NCBI GenBank assembly: GCA_902574035.1 | Contig: CACGMC010000002.1 | Location: 1-64,000, forward strand | Origin: an uncultured Pelagibacteraceae bacterium | Lineage (GTDB): Bacteria; Pseudomonadota; Alphaproteobacteria; Pelagibacterales; Pelagibacteraceae | DNA length: 64,000 bases | Direction of reading: 5' to 3' | The notes under the pieces: generated by a model | Seen by the model: only the letters and a program-made list of their open reading frames with translations | What the model was told of the DNA's origin: nothing | Databases searched by the model: none | Translations under genes and position numbers: made by a program | Shown here: piece after piece, positions 16,042 to 20,263 of the stretch | Position numbering within the stretch: the first letter of the stretch is position 1 | How the letters are laid out: each line of letters starts with the position of its first letter

Positions 16042-16233
16042 ATGAAACAATCTTGGGTTGTGTTGAATTCAACTTATGATAGATTCTCTTATATGAGAAT
16101 CTTAGCTTCAAGAATTAAAAACGCTAAAGAGCTAAAGTACGGTAAGCTAAAAACTAGCTTACTTAAGCCAAAAAATAACCTTCAGTCAGACTTCTATTAT
16201 CTTTTTAAGAAGAAAACTTTAATCAAAAAATAA
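16042..16233 (+). CDS. Hypothetical small basic protein, 63 aa
   Basis: ORF in an otherwise unusually long intergenic region; weak SD; no recognised family. Confidence 0.45.
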   Translation: MKQSWVVLNSTYDRFSYMRILASRIKNAKELKYGKLKTSLLKPKNNLQSDFYYLFKKKTLIKK

Positions 16234-16273: not shown

Positions 16274-16297
16274 GATAATGATAATTATTCTCATTCT
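16274..16297. promoter_or_regulatory. Fur box / iron operator
   Basis: gataatgataattattctcattctc closely matches the classical GATAATGATAATCATTATC Fur box, upstream of an Fe3+ SBP gene. Confidence 0.82.
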
Positions 16298-16339: not shown

Positions 16340-17350
16340 ATGAGAAAAATAATATTAGCAGTTTCAGCATTATTTTTTGTTTTTGGAAATCTTTTAGCTA
16401 ACGAAGTAAATATATTCAGTGCAAGACATTACGATTCAGATGTTCAATTGTATGAAAAATTTACAGCTAAAACAGGAATAAAAGTAAATGTTGTATCTGG
16501 AAAATCAGGCGCATTAGAGAAAAGAATAATCGCAGAGGGCGGCACAGCAGACTTATATATAACAGCTGATGCAGGTAGACTTGGCGCATTTTCAGCTAAC
16601 TTACAAGGTGGTTTAACAAGTGACGCAATAAAGTCAGCTGTTCCTAGTAATTTTAGAACATCTAAATGGGTTGGAATAGCTAAAAGAGCAAGAATAGTTT
16701 ATTTTGCTCCGGAGAGAGTTACAGGCGCAGAGTTAAGAGGTTTGACTTATGAAAGTTTAGCTGACCCTAAATGGAAAGGCAGATTAGTTATAAGAGCTTC
16801 TAACAATATTTATAACCAGTCACTGGTTGCTTCATTAATTAAAAATAATGGAAAAGGCAAAGTAGTAGAGTGGTCAAAAGGAATGGTTTCGAATATGGCT
16901 AGATCTCCAAAAGGTAATGACAGAGCACAAATACTAGCAGTAGCAGCAGGAGAAGCTGATATTGCAGTAGCTAATACATACTACTTAGCTCTAATGTTAT
17001 CAGGTAAAAAAGGTGCTGAGCAACAAGCTGCAGCAAAAAAAGTAAAACCTTTTTTCCCTAACCAAGATGGTAGAGGAACACATATGAATATCAGTGGTGC
17101 AGGTTTAGTAAAAGGAGCTCCTAACAAAGCTAATGCAATTAAGCTTGTAGAGTTCTTACTAAGTCAAGAAGCGCAAGAGCATATTGTTAATAATACTTTT
17201 GAATATCCAATGATAGCAGGTGTTTCACCTCATCCATTAGTAGTTAATATGGGTTTAGATTTTAAACAAGATCTTAAAACTAAAGTCGTTAACTACGGAA
17301 AAAGACAAGCTGATGCATTAGAGGTAATGACAGCAGCAGGTTGGAAATAG
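16340..17350 (+). CDS. Fe(3+) ABC transporter substrate-binding protein (FutA/FbpA/IdiA family)
   Basis: NEVNIFSARHYDSDVQLYEKFTAKTGIKVNV; signal peptide; followed by matching permease and ATPase. Confidence 0.95.
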   Translation: MRKIILAVSALFFVFGNLLANEVNIFSARHYDSDVQLYEKFTAKTGIKVNVVSGKSGALEKRIIAEGGTADLYITADAGRLGAFSANLQGGLTSDAIKSAVPSNFRTSKWVGIAKRARIVYFAPERVTGAELRGLTYESLADPKWKGRLVIRASNNIYNQSLVASLIKNNGKGKVVEWSKGMVSNMARSPKGNDRAQILAVAAGEADIAVANTYYLALMLSGKKGAEQQAAAKKVKPFFPNQDGRGTHMNISGAGLVKGAPNKANAIKLVEFLLSQEAQEHIVNNTFEYPMIAGVSPHPLVVNMGLDFKQDLKTKVVNYGKRQADALEVMTAAGWK

Positions 17351-17367
17351 TTGTTAATTAATTATTC

Positions 17368-17386
17368 ATGGCGTTTAAAGCGCCAT
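17368..17386 (+). other. Stem-loop between iron SBP and downstream small ORF
   Basis: ATGGCG-tttaaag-CGCCAT, 6-bp perfect stem just after the SBP stop; no strong T tract. Confidence 0.55.
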
Positions 17387-17398
17387 AAATATTAAAGA

Positions 17399-17563
17399 AT
17401 GAAAAATAAATTAAATACTTGTAAAAAGGGGTGCAAAACCTGTAATGATGATGCTAAGGATATGCAAAATCAACTTCAAAATAGAGATCCAAAAGAATTA
17501 AATTTTGAAGAAGCAAAACAAATTTTCTTTCCACTCAAAGGGAAGATTAATTCAAAAAAATAA
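17399..17563 (+). CDS. Small protein, 54 aa, with C-x3-C-x2-C motif (MKNKLNTCKKGCKTCNDDAKDMQNQLQNRDPKELNFEEAKQIFFPLKGKINSKK), not in ORF track
   Basis: Read directly; stop TAA immediately abuts ATG of the iron permease (TAAATG); fills the gap between SBP and permease genes. Confidence 0.75.
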   Translation: MKNKLNTCKKGCKTCNDDAKDMQNQLQNRDPKELNFEEAKQIFFPLKGKINSKK

Positions 17564-19180
17564 ATGACTAAATATAACTTCTGGTTTTTCAGTTCATTAG
17601 CTATTGCGTTAATAGTTGCAATGCCAATTATTACTGTATTTTTTAGTTTTTTTGCAGAAACAAGTAATTACCTTGCAGTATTAAAAAATACTTTTCTATT
17701 CGATTATATAAATAACTCTTTAACTATTTTAATTTCAGTTTTGCTTATAACTCTTTTATTGGGTGTTATTTCAGCTTATTTTATATCATTTTATGAATTT
17801 CCATTATGTAATTTTTTTAGTTGGGCTTTAATTTTAGCGTTTGCAATACCAGGATATATATTTGCTTTTTCAATAATTGCATTTTTTGAAAACTATGGAA
17901 CTGCTTATACAATACTGACGAATATATTTGGTGAATATAATTATAACCCGCATATACCTAAATTAGATGGAATATTAGGATCAATTATAGCTATTAGTTT
18001 TTCTTTGTTTCCTTATGTATACGTATTAACAAGATCATCATTTTTCTTTCAATCAAACAACTATATTGAGGTAGGTCAAAATTTAGGTTTATCCGAGAAA
18101 GAAACTCTTTTTAAGATTATTTTACCTTCAGCCAGACCAGCAATTATTGCAGGTTTATCATTAGTTGCTATGGAATGTTTGTCTGATTTTGGAACAGTAT
18201 CAATTTTTAGTGTTTCCACATTAACTACCGGAATTTATAACTCCTGGCTGTCATTTGATGATTTAAATACAGCCAATCAAATTTCTTTCATACTACTATT
18301 ATTTATATTAATCCTTTTATCTATAGAAATTTATTCAAGAAAAGAGGCAAGGTATCATCAACCAGGAAGAGGCTTTAAACCAATTAATAAGATCAAACTT
18401 AGCGGGAAAAAATCCTTGCTAGCTTTTTCTTTTTGCTTTTTAGTATTTTTTATAAGTTTTATTTTTCCAGTTTCACAGATGATCTATTGGACTTTAAAAT
18501 TTCCAAAATATATCCAAGACATAAATATTTTGAAAATTAATTTAAATACAATGTATTTAGTCGGTCTTGCTAGTATAGTTTTAGTATTTATTTCATTATT
18601 TATTAACTATGGAAGTAGGATTTCTAAAAGTAAAATTTTAAATTACTTGACTAATTTTTCAATTTCGGGGTACGCAATTCCAGGTGTGATTTTGGCCGTA
18701 GCTTTTATAACTTTATTTAGCAATCTTAGTGAATTATTAAGTGAAAGTACAAATTTAGGAAGTACCAAAAAAATATTTATAGGATCTATATTCGGTTTAG
18801 TTTTAGCGTACTTTATAAGATTTTTTTCCCTTTCTTTTAATGGAATTAAATCTAGTTATGAGAAAATAAATAATTCAATAGATGAAAGCGCGTATTTACT
18901 TGGGTATTCAAAAATTAAAACTTTTTCAAACATTCATGTTCCGTATTTAAAAAACAATATAATTTTAATAGTTGTGCTCATATCTTTAGAAATTATAAAA
19001 GAGTTACCAATTACTATGATATTAAGACCTTTCAATTTTGAGACTTTTGCTACACAAGCATATGTCTATGCCTCTCAAGATTTATTAGAAGCCGCGGCAT
19101 TACCTTCTTTATTTCTTATAAGTTGGGCAACTATCCTCATAATATTTTCTTCAAAATATATACTTTCGCAAAAAAACTAA
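17564..19180 (+). CDS. Fe(3+) ABC transporter permease (FbpB-type, two-domain)
   Basis: 538 aa, two permease halves each with an EAA-like loop (VGQNLGLSEKETLFKIILP; DESAYLLGYSKIKTFSNIHVP). Confidence 0.94.
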   Translation: MTKYNFWFFSSLAIALIVAMPIITVFFSFFAETSNYLAVLKNTFLFDYINNSLTILISVLLITLLLGVISAYFISFYEFPLCNFFSWALILAFAIPGYIFAFSIIAFFENYGTAYTILTNIFGEYNYNPHIPKLDGILGSIIAISFSLFPYVYVLTRSSFFFQSNNYIEVGQNLGLSEKETLFKIILPSARPAIIAGLSLVAMECLSDFGTVSIFSVSTLTTGIYNSWLSFDDLNTANQISFILLLFILILLSIEIYSRKEARYHQPGRGFKPINKIKLSGKKSLLAFSFCFLVFFISFIFPVSQMIYWTLKFPKYIQDINILKINLNTMYLVGLASIVLVFISLFINYGSRISKSKILNYLTNFSISGYAIPGVILAVAFITLFSNLSELLSESTNLGSTKKIFIGSIFGLVLAYFIRFFSLSFNGIKSSYEKINNSIDESAYLLGYSKIKTFSNIHVPYLKNNIILIVVLISLEIIKELPITMILRPFNFETFATQAYVYASQDLLEAAALPSLFLISWATILIIFSSKYILSQKN

Positions 19181-19192
19181 TATAATCAAAAA

Positions 19193-20263
19193 ATGTTAAA
19201 TCGATTTTTTGAAATTAAAGCCGGTAACTTTGTTGCGAGTGAAAAAAATAAAGTTAACAATGTAAACCTTAAAATAGAAAAAAAAGGTGAAATTGTTTCT
19301 TTATTAGGACCTTCTGGTGTTGGTAAAACAACAATACTGAGAACTATTGCTGGATTACAAAAACTGAGTTCTGGAGAAATTTTTTTAAAAGATAAATTAA
19401 TATCCTCAAAAGATGTTCATATAGAACCAGAGGAAAGAAATATAGCTTTATCATTTCAAGACAATTCATTATTTCCAAATTATAAAGTAATAGACAATAT
19501 AAATTTTGGAAAAAAAAGATCTAATGGTAATGGCTTTTCATATGAAGCAGACGACATTATTAAATTACTTCATATTGAACCAATTCTAGAAAAATTTCCT
19601 CACCAAATAAGTGCTGGTGAAGCACAACGAGTATCTCTAGCAAGATCATTAATGTCTAAACCAGATCTTTTATTATTGGATGAGCCTTTTTCAAACATTG
19701 ATCAAAGTCTTAAAGAAGAAATACAATATTCTGTAAAAAAACTACTTAAAAAAATTAATTTAACAACAATAATTGTTACTCACGATTCCTACGAGGCATT
19801 TTCTTTGGCAGATCGTTGTGGAATAATTCTTAATCAGGAGCTTAAACAATATGATGTTCCTTATAATGTTCATCATGAACCAAATTCTTTAGAAGTTGCA
19901 AAATTTTTAAATAAGGGAGTTTTTGTAGATGTAAAAGTATTAACCAATGATTGCGCTGTACACAGTTTACAACATAATGAGTTAGGTGAAATAAGAGGGA
20001 AATTATTAAAAAATTACCCAAAAGGAAAAAGTGTTAAACTTCTCTTACAACCGGAAGATTTAGTTCATGACGATCAAAGTAAATTAAAATTAGAGGTAGT
20101 TGATAGAAAGTTTAGAGGAACTAATTTTATTTACACGTTAAAGACGCAAAAAGGTGAACATATACCGGTTTTTGTACATTCTCATCATATCCACCAACAT
20201 GAAAAATCTGAAAAGTTTGGTATTAAAACTCCCATTTTTATTGACCATTTAGTATGTTTTTAA
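19193..20263 (+). CDS. Fe(3+) ABC transporter ATP-binding protein (FbpC-type)
   Basis: Walker A GPSGVGKTT, ISAGEAQRVSLARSL, LLLDEPFSNID; C-terminal TOBE-like region. Confidence 0.94.
   Translation: MLNRFFEIKAGNFVASEKNKVNNVNLKIEKKGEIVSLLGPSGVGKTTILRTIAGLQKLSSGEIFLKDKLISSKDVHIEPEERNIALSFQDNSLFPNYKVIDNINFGKKRSNGNGFSYEADDIIKLLHIEPILEKFPHQISAGEAQRVSLARSLMSKPDLLLLDEPFSNIDQSLKEEIQYSVKKLLKKINLTTIIVTHDSYEAFSLADRCGIILNQELKQYDVPYNVHHEPNSLEVAKFLNKGVFVDVKVLTNDCAVHSLQHNELGEIRGKLLKNYPKGKSVKLLLQPEDLVHDDQSKLKLEVVDRKFRGTNFIYTLKTQKGEHIPVFVHSHHIHQHEKSEKFGIKTPIFIDHLVCF

Follow-up and report, generated by a model that had tools for sequence, protein, structure and literature searches.

A putative CxxC microprotein component of the ferric-iron importer in SAR11 bacteria

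Introduction

ABC importers of the Fbp/Fut type deliver Fe3+, and the cytosol uses Fe2+. To our knowledge, there is no settled account of how the cytosol reduces the Fe3+ that these importers bring in. For ferric siderophores a comparable job, the cytosolic reduction of imported Fe3+, is done by reductases of the FhuF and SIP types. Small proteins with cysteines serve two other iron systems: FeoC, the accessory of FeoB, is co-encoded with its importer, and Bfd, which is iron-regulated, serves to reduce and release stored iron. In Bacillus subtilis, FbpA, FbpB and FbpC of the Fur regulon are small basic iron-starvation proteins, according to the references of PMC2864753.

SAR11 bacteria are the most abundant marine heterotrophs, and sfuC has been proposed as their marker of iron limitation: in iron-limited Ca. 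P. ubique the transcripts of sfuC, sfuB and sfuA rose 16-, 10- and 5-fold, respectively (PMC2864753). The three genes encode the same parts as the Fut importer (FutA-FutB-FutC), namely a FutA-like SfuC, a permease and an ATPase. The locus tags SAR11_1238 (sfuC) and SAR11_1237 (sfuB) of Ca. P. ubique run on without a gap, which hints that the annotation places no gene between the two there. Here we describe a predicted CxxC microprotein, encoded between sfuC and sfuB in an uncultured Pelagibacteraceae bacterium and its relatives, that is an unrecognised and lineage-specific component of a known ferric importer.

Results

A small gene between sfuC and sfuB is under purifying selection

The window, that is, the whole stretch of 64,000 nucleotides analysed here from an uncultured Pelagibacteraceae bacterium, carries the operon in the order Fur box, sfuC, microprotein gene, sfuB and sfuA. 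The Fur-box-like site upstream of sfuC (GATAATGATAATTATTCTC; 16274..16292, + strand) differs from GATAATGATAATCATTATC at two positions, and all Fur-box matches within the window fall on it, against a chance mean of 0.14. SfuC (16340..17350, +) is a FutA/FbpA-type periplasmic Fe3+-binding protein by its Pfam family (SBP_bac_6) and by its PDB matches, the ferric-binding proteins 6g7n (E 1e-88) and 2pt1 (E 1.5e-87); its matches in NCBIfam name other substrates and none of them is over the cut-off. The permease gene sfuB (17564..19180, +; BPD_transp_1) and the ATPase gene sfuA (19193..20263, +; ABC_tran) complete the importer. The microprotein is co-encoded with a FutA-type ferric importer that is probably under Fur control, as judged from the site in the window.

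The microprotein gene occupies 17399..17563 on the + strand. It starts with ATG and encodes 54 amino acids (MKNKLNTCKKGCKTCNDDAKDMQNQLQNRDPKELNFEEAKQIFFPLKGKINSKK) with a conserved C12-x2-C15, and its TAA (17561-17563) is followed immediately by the permease start codon, an ATG at 17564. An earlier note on this DNA had pointed out this unlisted ORF, and its coordinates, its length and the TAA/ATG junction are confirmed. Syntenic copies in relatives are 91-98% identical, and a tblastn search of 297 genomes of the family recovered close copies together with a more divergent group; in profile searches the matches reach an E-value of about 1e-33 per genome. Pairwise dN/dS within the window's clade ranges from 0.03 to 0.26, at about 0.2, and the pooled pN/pS values are 0.23 for this clade and 0.26 for the other members of the genus. 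These values are low, yet they lie above those of the last 100 codons of sfuC (0.02-0.05), which argues that the microprotein gene is constrained but evolves faster than its transporter. That the ORF is a real gene under purifying selection is well supported, and a chance ORF is ruled out by the conservation and the dN/dS. In agreement with the earlier note, a small protein is co-encoded with the Fe3+ importer.

The product could still be beside the point, with the ORF acting as a leader or coupling frame that merely aids translation of sfuB. Its short length and the stop-start abutment in the window fit such a device. The low dN/dS and the residues that are invariant across genera do not, and neither do the copy retained as the C-terminal domain of a fusion protein (see below) nor the hairpin that separates the microprotein gene from sfuB in most relatives. 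We regard a leader without a functional protein as highly improbable.

The conserved motif is CxxC

The cysteines of the window's microprotein are residues 8, 12 and 15, and the earlier note had read them as one motif, C-x3-C-x2-C. Alignments A1 and A2 and a count over 127 sequences uphold the reading frame and the last two cysteines in syntenic loci (codons of C12 and C15, 17432..17443, +). The first one does not hold: C8 (codon 17420-17422) is confined to the window's sub-clade; L005 and L006, which form the nearest sister group, have Tyr in its place, and elsewhere Ser or Leu-like residues occur. The conserved motif is therefore CxxC and not Cx3CxxC. It is kept in 125 of 125 distinct intact copies, and of the 127 sequences only two lack it, both of them parts of a single copy in genome G058 that is broken in two. 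Across genera (A2), C12, C15 and R29 are invariant, and N6, E38 and I42 are nearly so.

Most copies have the form C-x-P-C, with CSPC or CEPC most frequent; the proline is not invariant, as CKTC, CSTC, CPAC and CVIC also occur. A third cysteine stands four positions past the second in 55 copies and directly before the motif in four, and 58 copies have two cysteines only. Most lineages thus have too few cysteines to supply four ligands per monomer, and any metal or Fe-S site would have to be completed by a second chain in a dimer or by other ligands.

The microprotein is a predicted helical hairpin outside the families searched

The AlphaFold model of the microprotein alone (mean pLDDT 72) is a helical hairpin, and the same hairpin appears as the C-terminal domain in the model of the fusion to a flavodoxin. 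We conclude with medium confidence that the protein is a predicted two-helix hairpin with CxxC opening helix 1. The N-terminus, as read from the sequence, has no hydrophobic segment, in line with the earlier note, which had found no signal peptide; the microprotein is probably cytosolic.

The window's microprotein has no match in Pfam or NCBIfam. When 43 relatives were searched, the best E-values were 0.0034 in Pfam and 0.0042 in PHROGs, scattered over unrelated families (NCBIfam was searched with the window protein only). Foldseek, queried with a small model of medium confidence, gave no match in the PDB at E <= 10, and the best E-value of the microprotein profile against the PDB was 0.42. 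The earlier note had not recognised the protein as part of any Fbp/Fut system, and none of the searches places it in a known family. We found no description of the microprotein, nor of a gene between sfuC and sfuB, in the open-licence literature.

Several assignments were considered and rejected. Bfd-type [2Fe-2S] proteins (Fer2_BFD) need four cysteines (CxC ... CxxC) where the microprotein conserves two, and the microprotein does not match this family. A thioredoxin-superfamily fold is at odds with a length of 54 residues, models with helices only and the lack of a family match, and radical SAM proteins (Cx3CxxC) require three cysteines whereas C8 occurs in the window's sub-clade only. FeoC is at most an analogy: there is no Pfam match, the microprotein is encoded together with an Fe3+ ABC importer and thus with another type of importer, and it is linked to flavodoxin. 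FhuF and the SIP-type reductases are much larger proteins without sequence match to the microprotein. The B. subtilis FbpA/B/C proteins are set apart by description and not by sequence, in that the SAR11 protein has CxxC in all intact copies and its gene lies inside the importer operon. Weak matches in ORFs of 188 and 233 amino acids (L142-L144) would have made the microprotein a paralogue of something larger, but the CxxC is missing from them and we take them to be spurious.

The gene is restricted to one family and has been lost repeatedly

A profile built from 25 microprotein copies (A1) matches 97 of the 169 genomes of the window's genus; two weak matches among these (G147, G267) are probably spurious, which leaves about 95, and sfuC was found in 121 of the same 169. 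Of the 297 genomes sampled from the family, 162 are matched, spread by tally over six genera, with weak matches in g2. All syntenic copies inspected lie between sfuC and sfuB. By these counts, most SAR11 with the iron-import operon carry the predicted gene in it. Across the class Alphaproteobacteria, only two of 289 genomes gave a profile match, and both are members of Pelagibacteraceae; the wider order outside the family gave just two weak matches, and the one that was opened lies inside an unrelated ORF. The known Fut/Fbp/Sfu importers differ in this respect from that of SAR11, which adds a gene for a probably cytosolic CxxC microprotein: in 28 sampled loci outside the family no related small CxxC ORF follows the gene of the binding protein, apart from three ORFs that bear a CxxC by chance.

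The strict synteny with sfuB, the stop-start coupling in the window and the limitation to one family would suit a structural or zinc-binding subunit of the transporter, one that docks on SfuA or SfuB and takes no part in redox or iron chemistry. However, related importers in organisms outside the family lack the microprotein, and its fusion partner is a flavodoxin rather than a transporter subunit, so that we consider this explanation quite unlikely.

Losses were surveyed at 20 loci, mainly from genomes of the genus that have sfuC but little or no profile match. At most of them a short intergenic gap (14-66 bp) replaces the microprotein gene. Two loci (L101, L102) keep a recognisable remnant of its 5' end, in L115 (G058) the gene is broken, and L110 and L111 hold a degenerate ORF without CxxC. 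The gene is absent even from close relatives of the window (L097-L099), whose sfuC is 95-97% identical. These repeated losses argue that the microprotein is an accessory, dispensable in some lineages, and not essential for import.

Flavodoxin and peroxiredoxin genes recur beside the microprotein gene

Within the window's genus flavodoxin is rare, being present in 10 of 169 genomes, and every one of the ten has it in the slot between sfuC and sfuB. It is of the CysJ/MioC type (Flavodoxin_1, E 1e-25; best PDB match 1ykg). Nine genomes have the order sfuC, microprotein, flavodoxin, sfuB, with a conserved stem-loop element in between at eight of these nine loci; a single insertion may account for all nine of these stand-alone flavodoxins. 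In the tenth genome (G347) flavodoxin and microprotein form one frame of 198 codons (L145:656-1249, - strand), in which the microprotein is the C-terminal part (E 2e-14). Known CysJ/MioC-type flavodoxins have no such C-terminal CxxC extension as part of their families. The fusion was seen in this single assembly, and an in-frame ATG at the junction (MSPSGTCETC...) means that a separate small product is also possible.

The flavodoxin is not a general partner: flavodoxin homologues in genus g4 lie elsewhere, unlinked to the slot, and the window's genome (92% complete) has no Flavodoxin_1 match. An electron donor would thus have to vary. In g4 a peroxiredoxin gene of the Redoxin/AhpC-TSA type lies between the microprotein gene and sfuB at nine sampled loci (L090, L092, L162, L164, L165, L169, L171, L181 and L182). 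At least two clearly different forms occur, and their divergence suggests that such genes were inserted more than once.

Where two genes are fused, or keep recurring side by side, it is standard to assume a functional link. The flavodoxin fusion and the recurrent redox neighbours therefore lead us to infer that the microprotein takes part in redox chemistry near the point of iron import. An alternative to iron handling would be thiol-disulfide exchange, with C-x-P-C as a small dithiol reductant for the neighbouring peroxiredoxin or as a guard against Fe2+/H2O2 chemistry during import. The nine g4 loci with a peroxiredoxin after the microprotein gene speak for it, as does the motif itself, for which C-x-P-C is the commonest form and which opens helix 1 in the model. 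The protein is, however, far smaller than a thioredoxin fold and has no predicted strands, and the proline is replaced in some copies. Thiol-disulfide exchange is in our view unlikely.

A regulator that senses metal would bear on import in another way. The CxxC would bind Fe2+ or Zn2+, and the metal state would adjust the SfuA/SfuB transporter or the operon mRNA, a role that might be comparable to that of FeoC for FeoB or to that of the small basic iron-sparing proteins of Bacillus. The microprotein is small, co-encoded with the transporter and mostly basic (pI 9.5 in the window, 5.8 in one g4 member), and structured RNA elements adjoin its gene. Such a regulator would leave the flavodoxin fusion and the redox neighbours unexplained, and no DNA- or RNA-binding family is matched. 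We rate it as rather unlikely, if conceivable.

A possible role in receiving and reducing imported iron

The earlier note had considered a metal-binding accessory or sensor. Given its fusion to a flavodoxin and its flavodoxin and peroxiredoxin neighbours, the microprotein is more likely to serve in iron reduction or redox handling, a role that the note did not propose. A co-encoded CxxC protein without signal peptide that is tied to an electron carrier fits the receipt of Fe3+, its reduction or its hand-over. We tentatively put forward, as the leading one among the readings considered, that the microprotein may be a cytosolic iron-handling or redox accessory, which would receive Fe3+ from the importer and help to reduce it to Fe2+. 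The microprotein would act at the cytosolic exit of the SfuABC importer, where its cysteine pair, probably as two pairs in a dimer, would receive the imported Fe3+ or hold a small iron centre. Electrons from a carrier, which would be the flavodoxin where present and otherwise ferredoxin or thiols, would then make Fe2+ for delivery. Against an iron-redox role stands the fact that a four-Cys centre needs more than the two cysteines that one chain offers.

The fuller version of this proposal is that SAR11 evolved a dedicated cytosolic CxxC microprotein that takes Fe3+ from SfuB, obtains electrons via flavodoxin, to which it is joined in one lineage, or via other carriers, and gives out Fe2+; this we consider possible but doubtful. 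If true, the ocean's most abundant bacteria would have a new kind of importer-coupled ferric reductase component. The natural fusion of a flavodoxin with a conserved microprotein makes the cytosolic step of Fe3+ reduction directly testable, and the microprotein gene offers a new iron-stress target for metatranscriptome and metaproteome surveys.

RNA elements and a second small ORF

A short hairpin (ATGGCG-TTTAAAG-CGCCAT; 17368..17386, +) lies between sfuC and the microprotein gene in the window, with paired changes on both sides of the stem in L003 and L004. Rfam showed no known RNA element in the slot, its only matches being tRNAs.

The conserved stem-loop element occurs between the microprotein stop and sfuB in L027 and at the same place in about 25 relatives of the genus (alignment A4), and Rfam gives no match for it. 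Its flanks are near-invariant (TTTGACGTCAAT ... AAATGC ... AGCCGCTTT), 98% of the cells are paired and 4 of 11 pairs have changed on both sides. It is absent from the window, and the window's own genome has no match to its strict pattern. Loci of g4 (e.g. L085, L086 and L130-L138) have a different hairpin in the interval between the microprotein gene and sfuB, with CTCC-containing loops that are anti-Shine-Dalgarno-like, and a conserved AAGGCGGATTATAA often follows before the permease.

In the window a second unlisted small ORF (16093-16233, +) closely precedes the Fur box. Its part from MRILASRIKNAKELKYGKLKTSLLKPKNNLQSDFYYLF is 90-100% conserved in near relatives, and the frame that precedes it is broken, so the true start of this ORF is probably that internal ATG.
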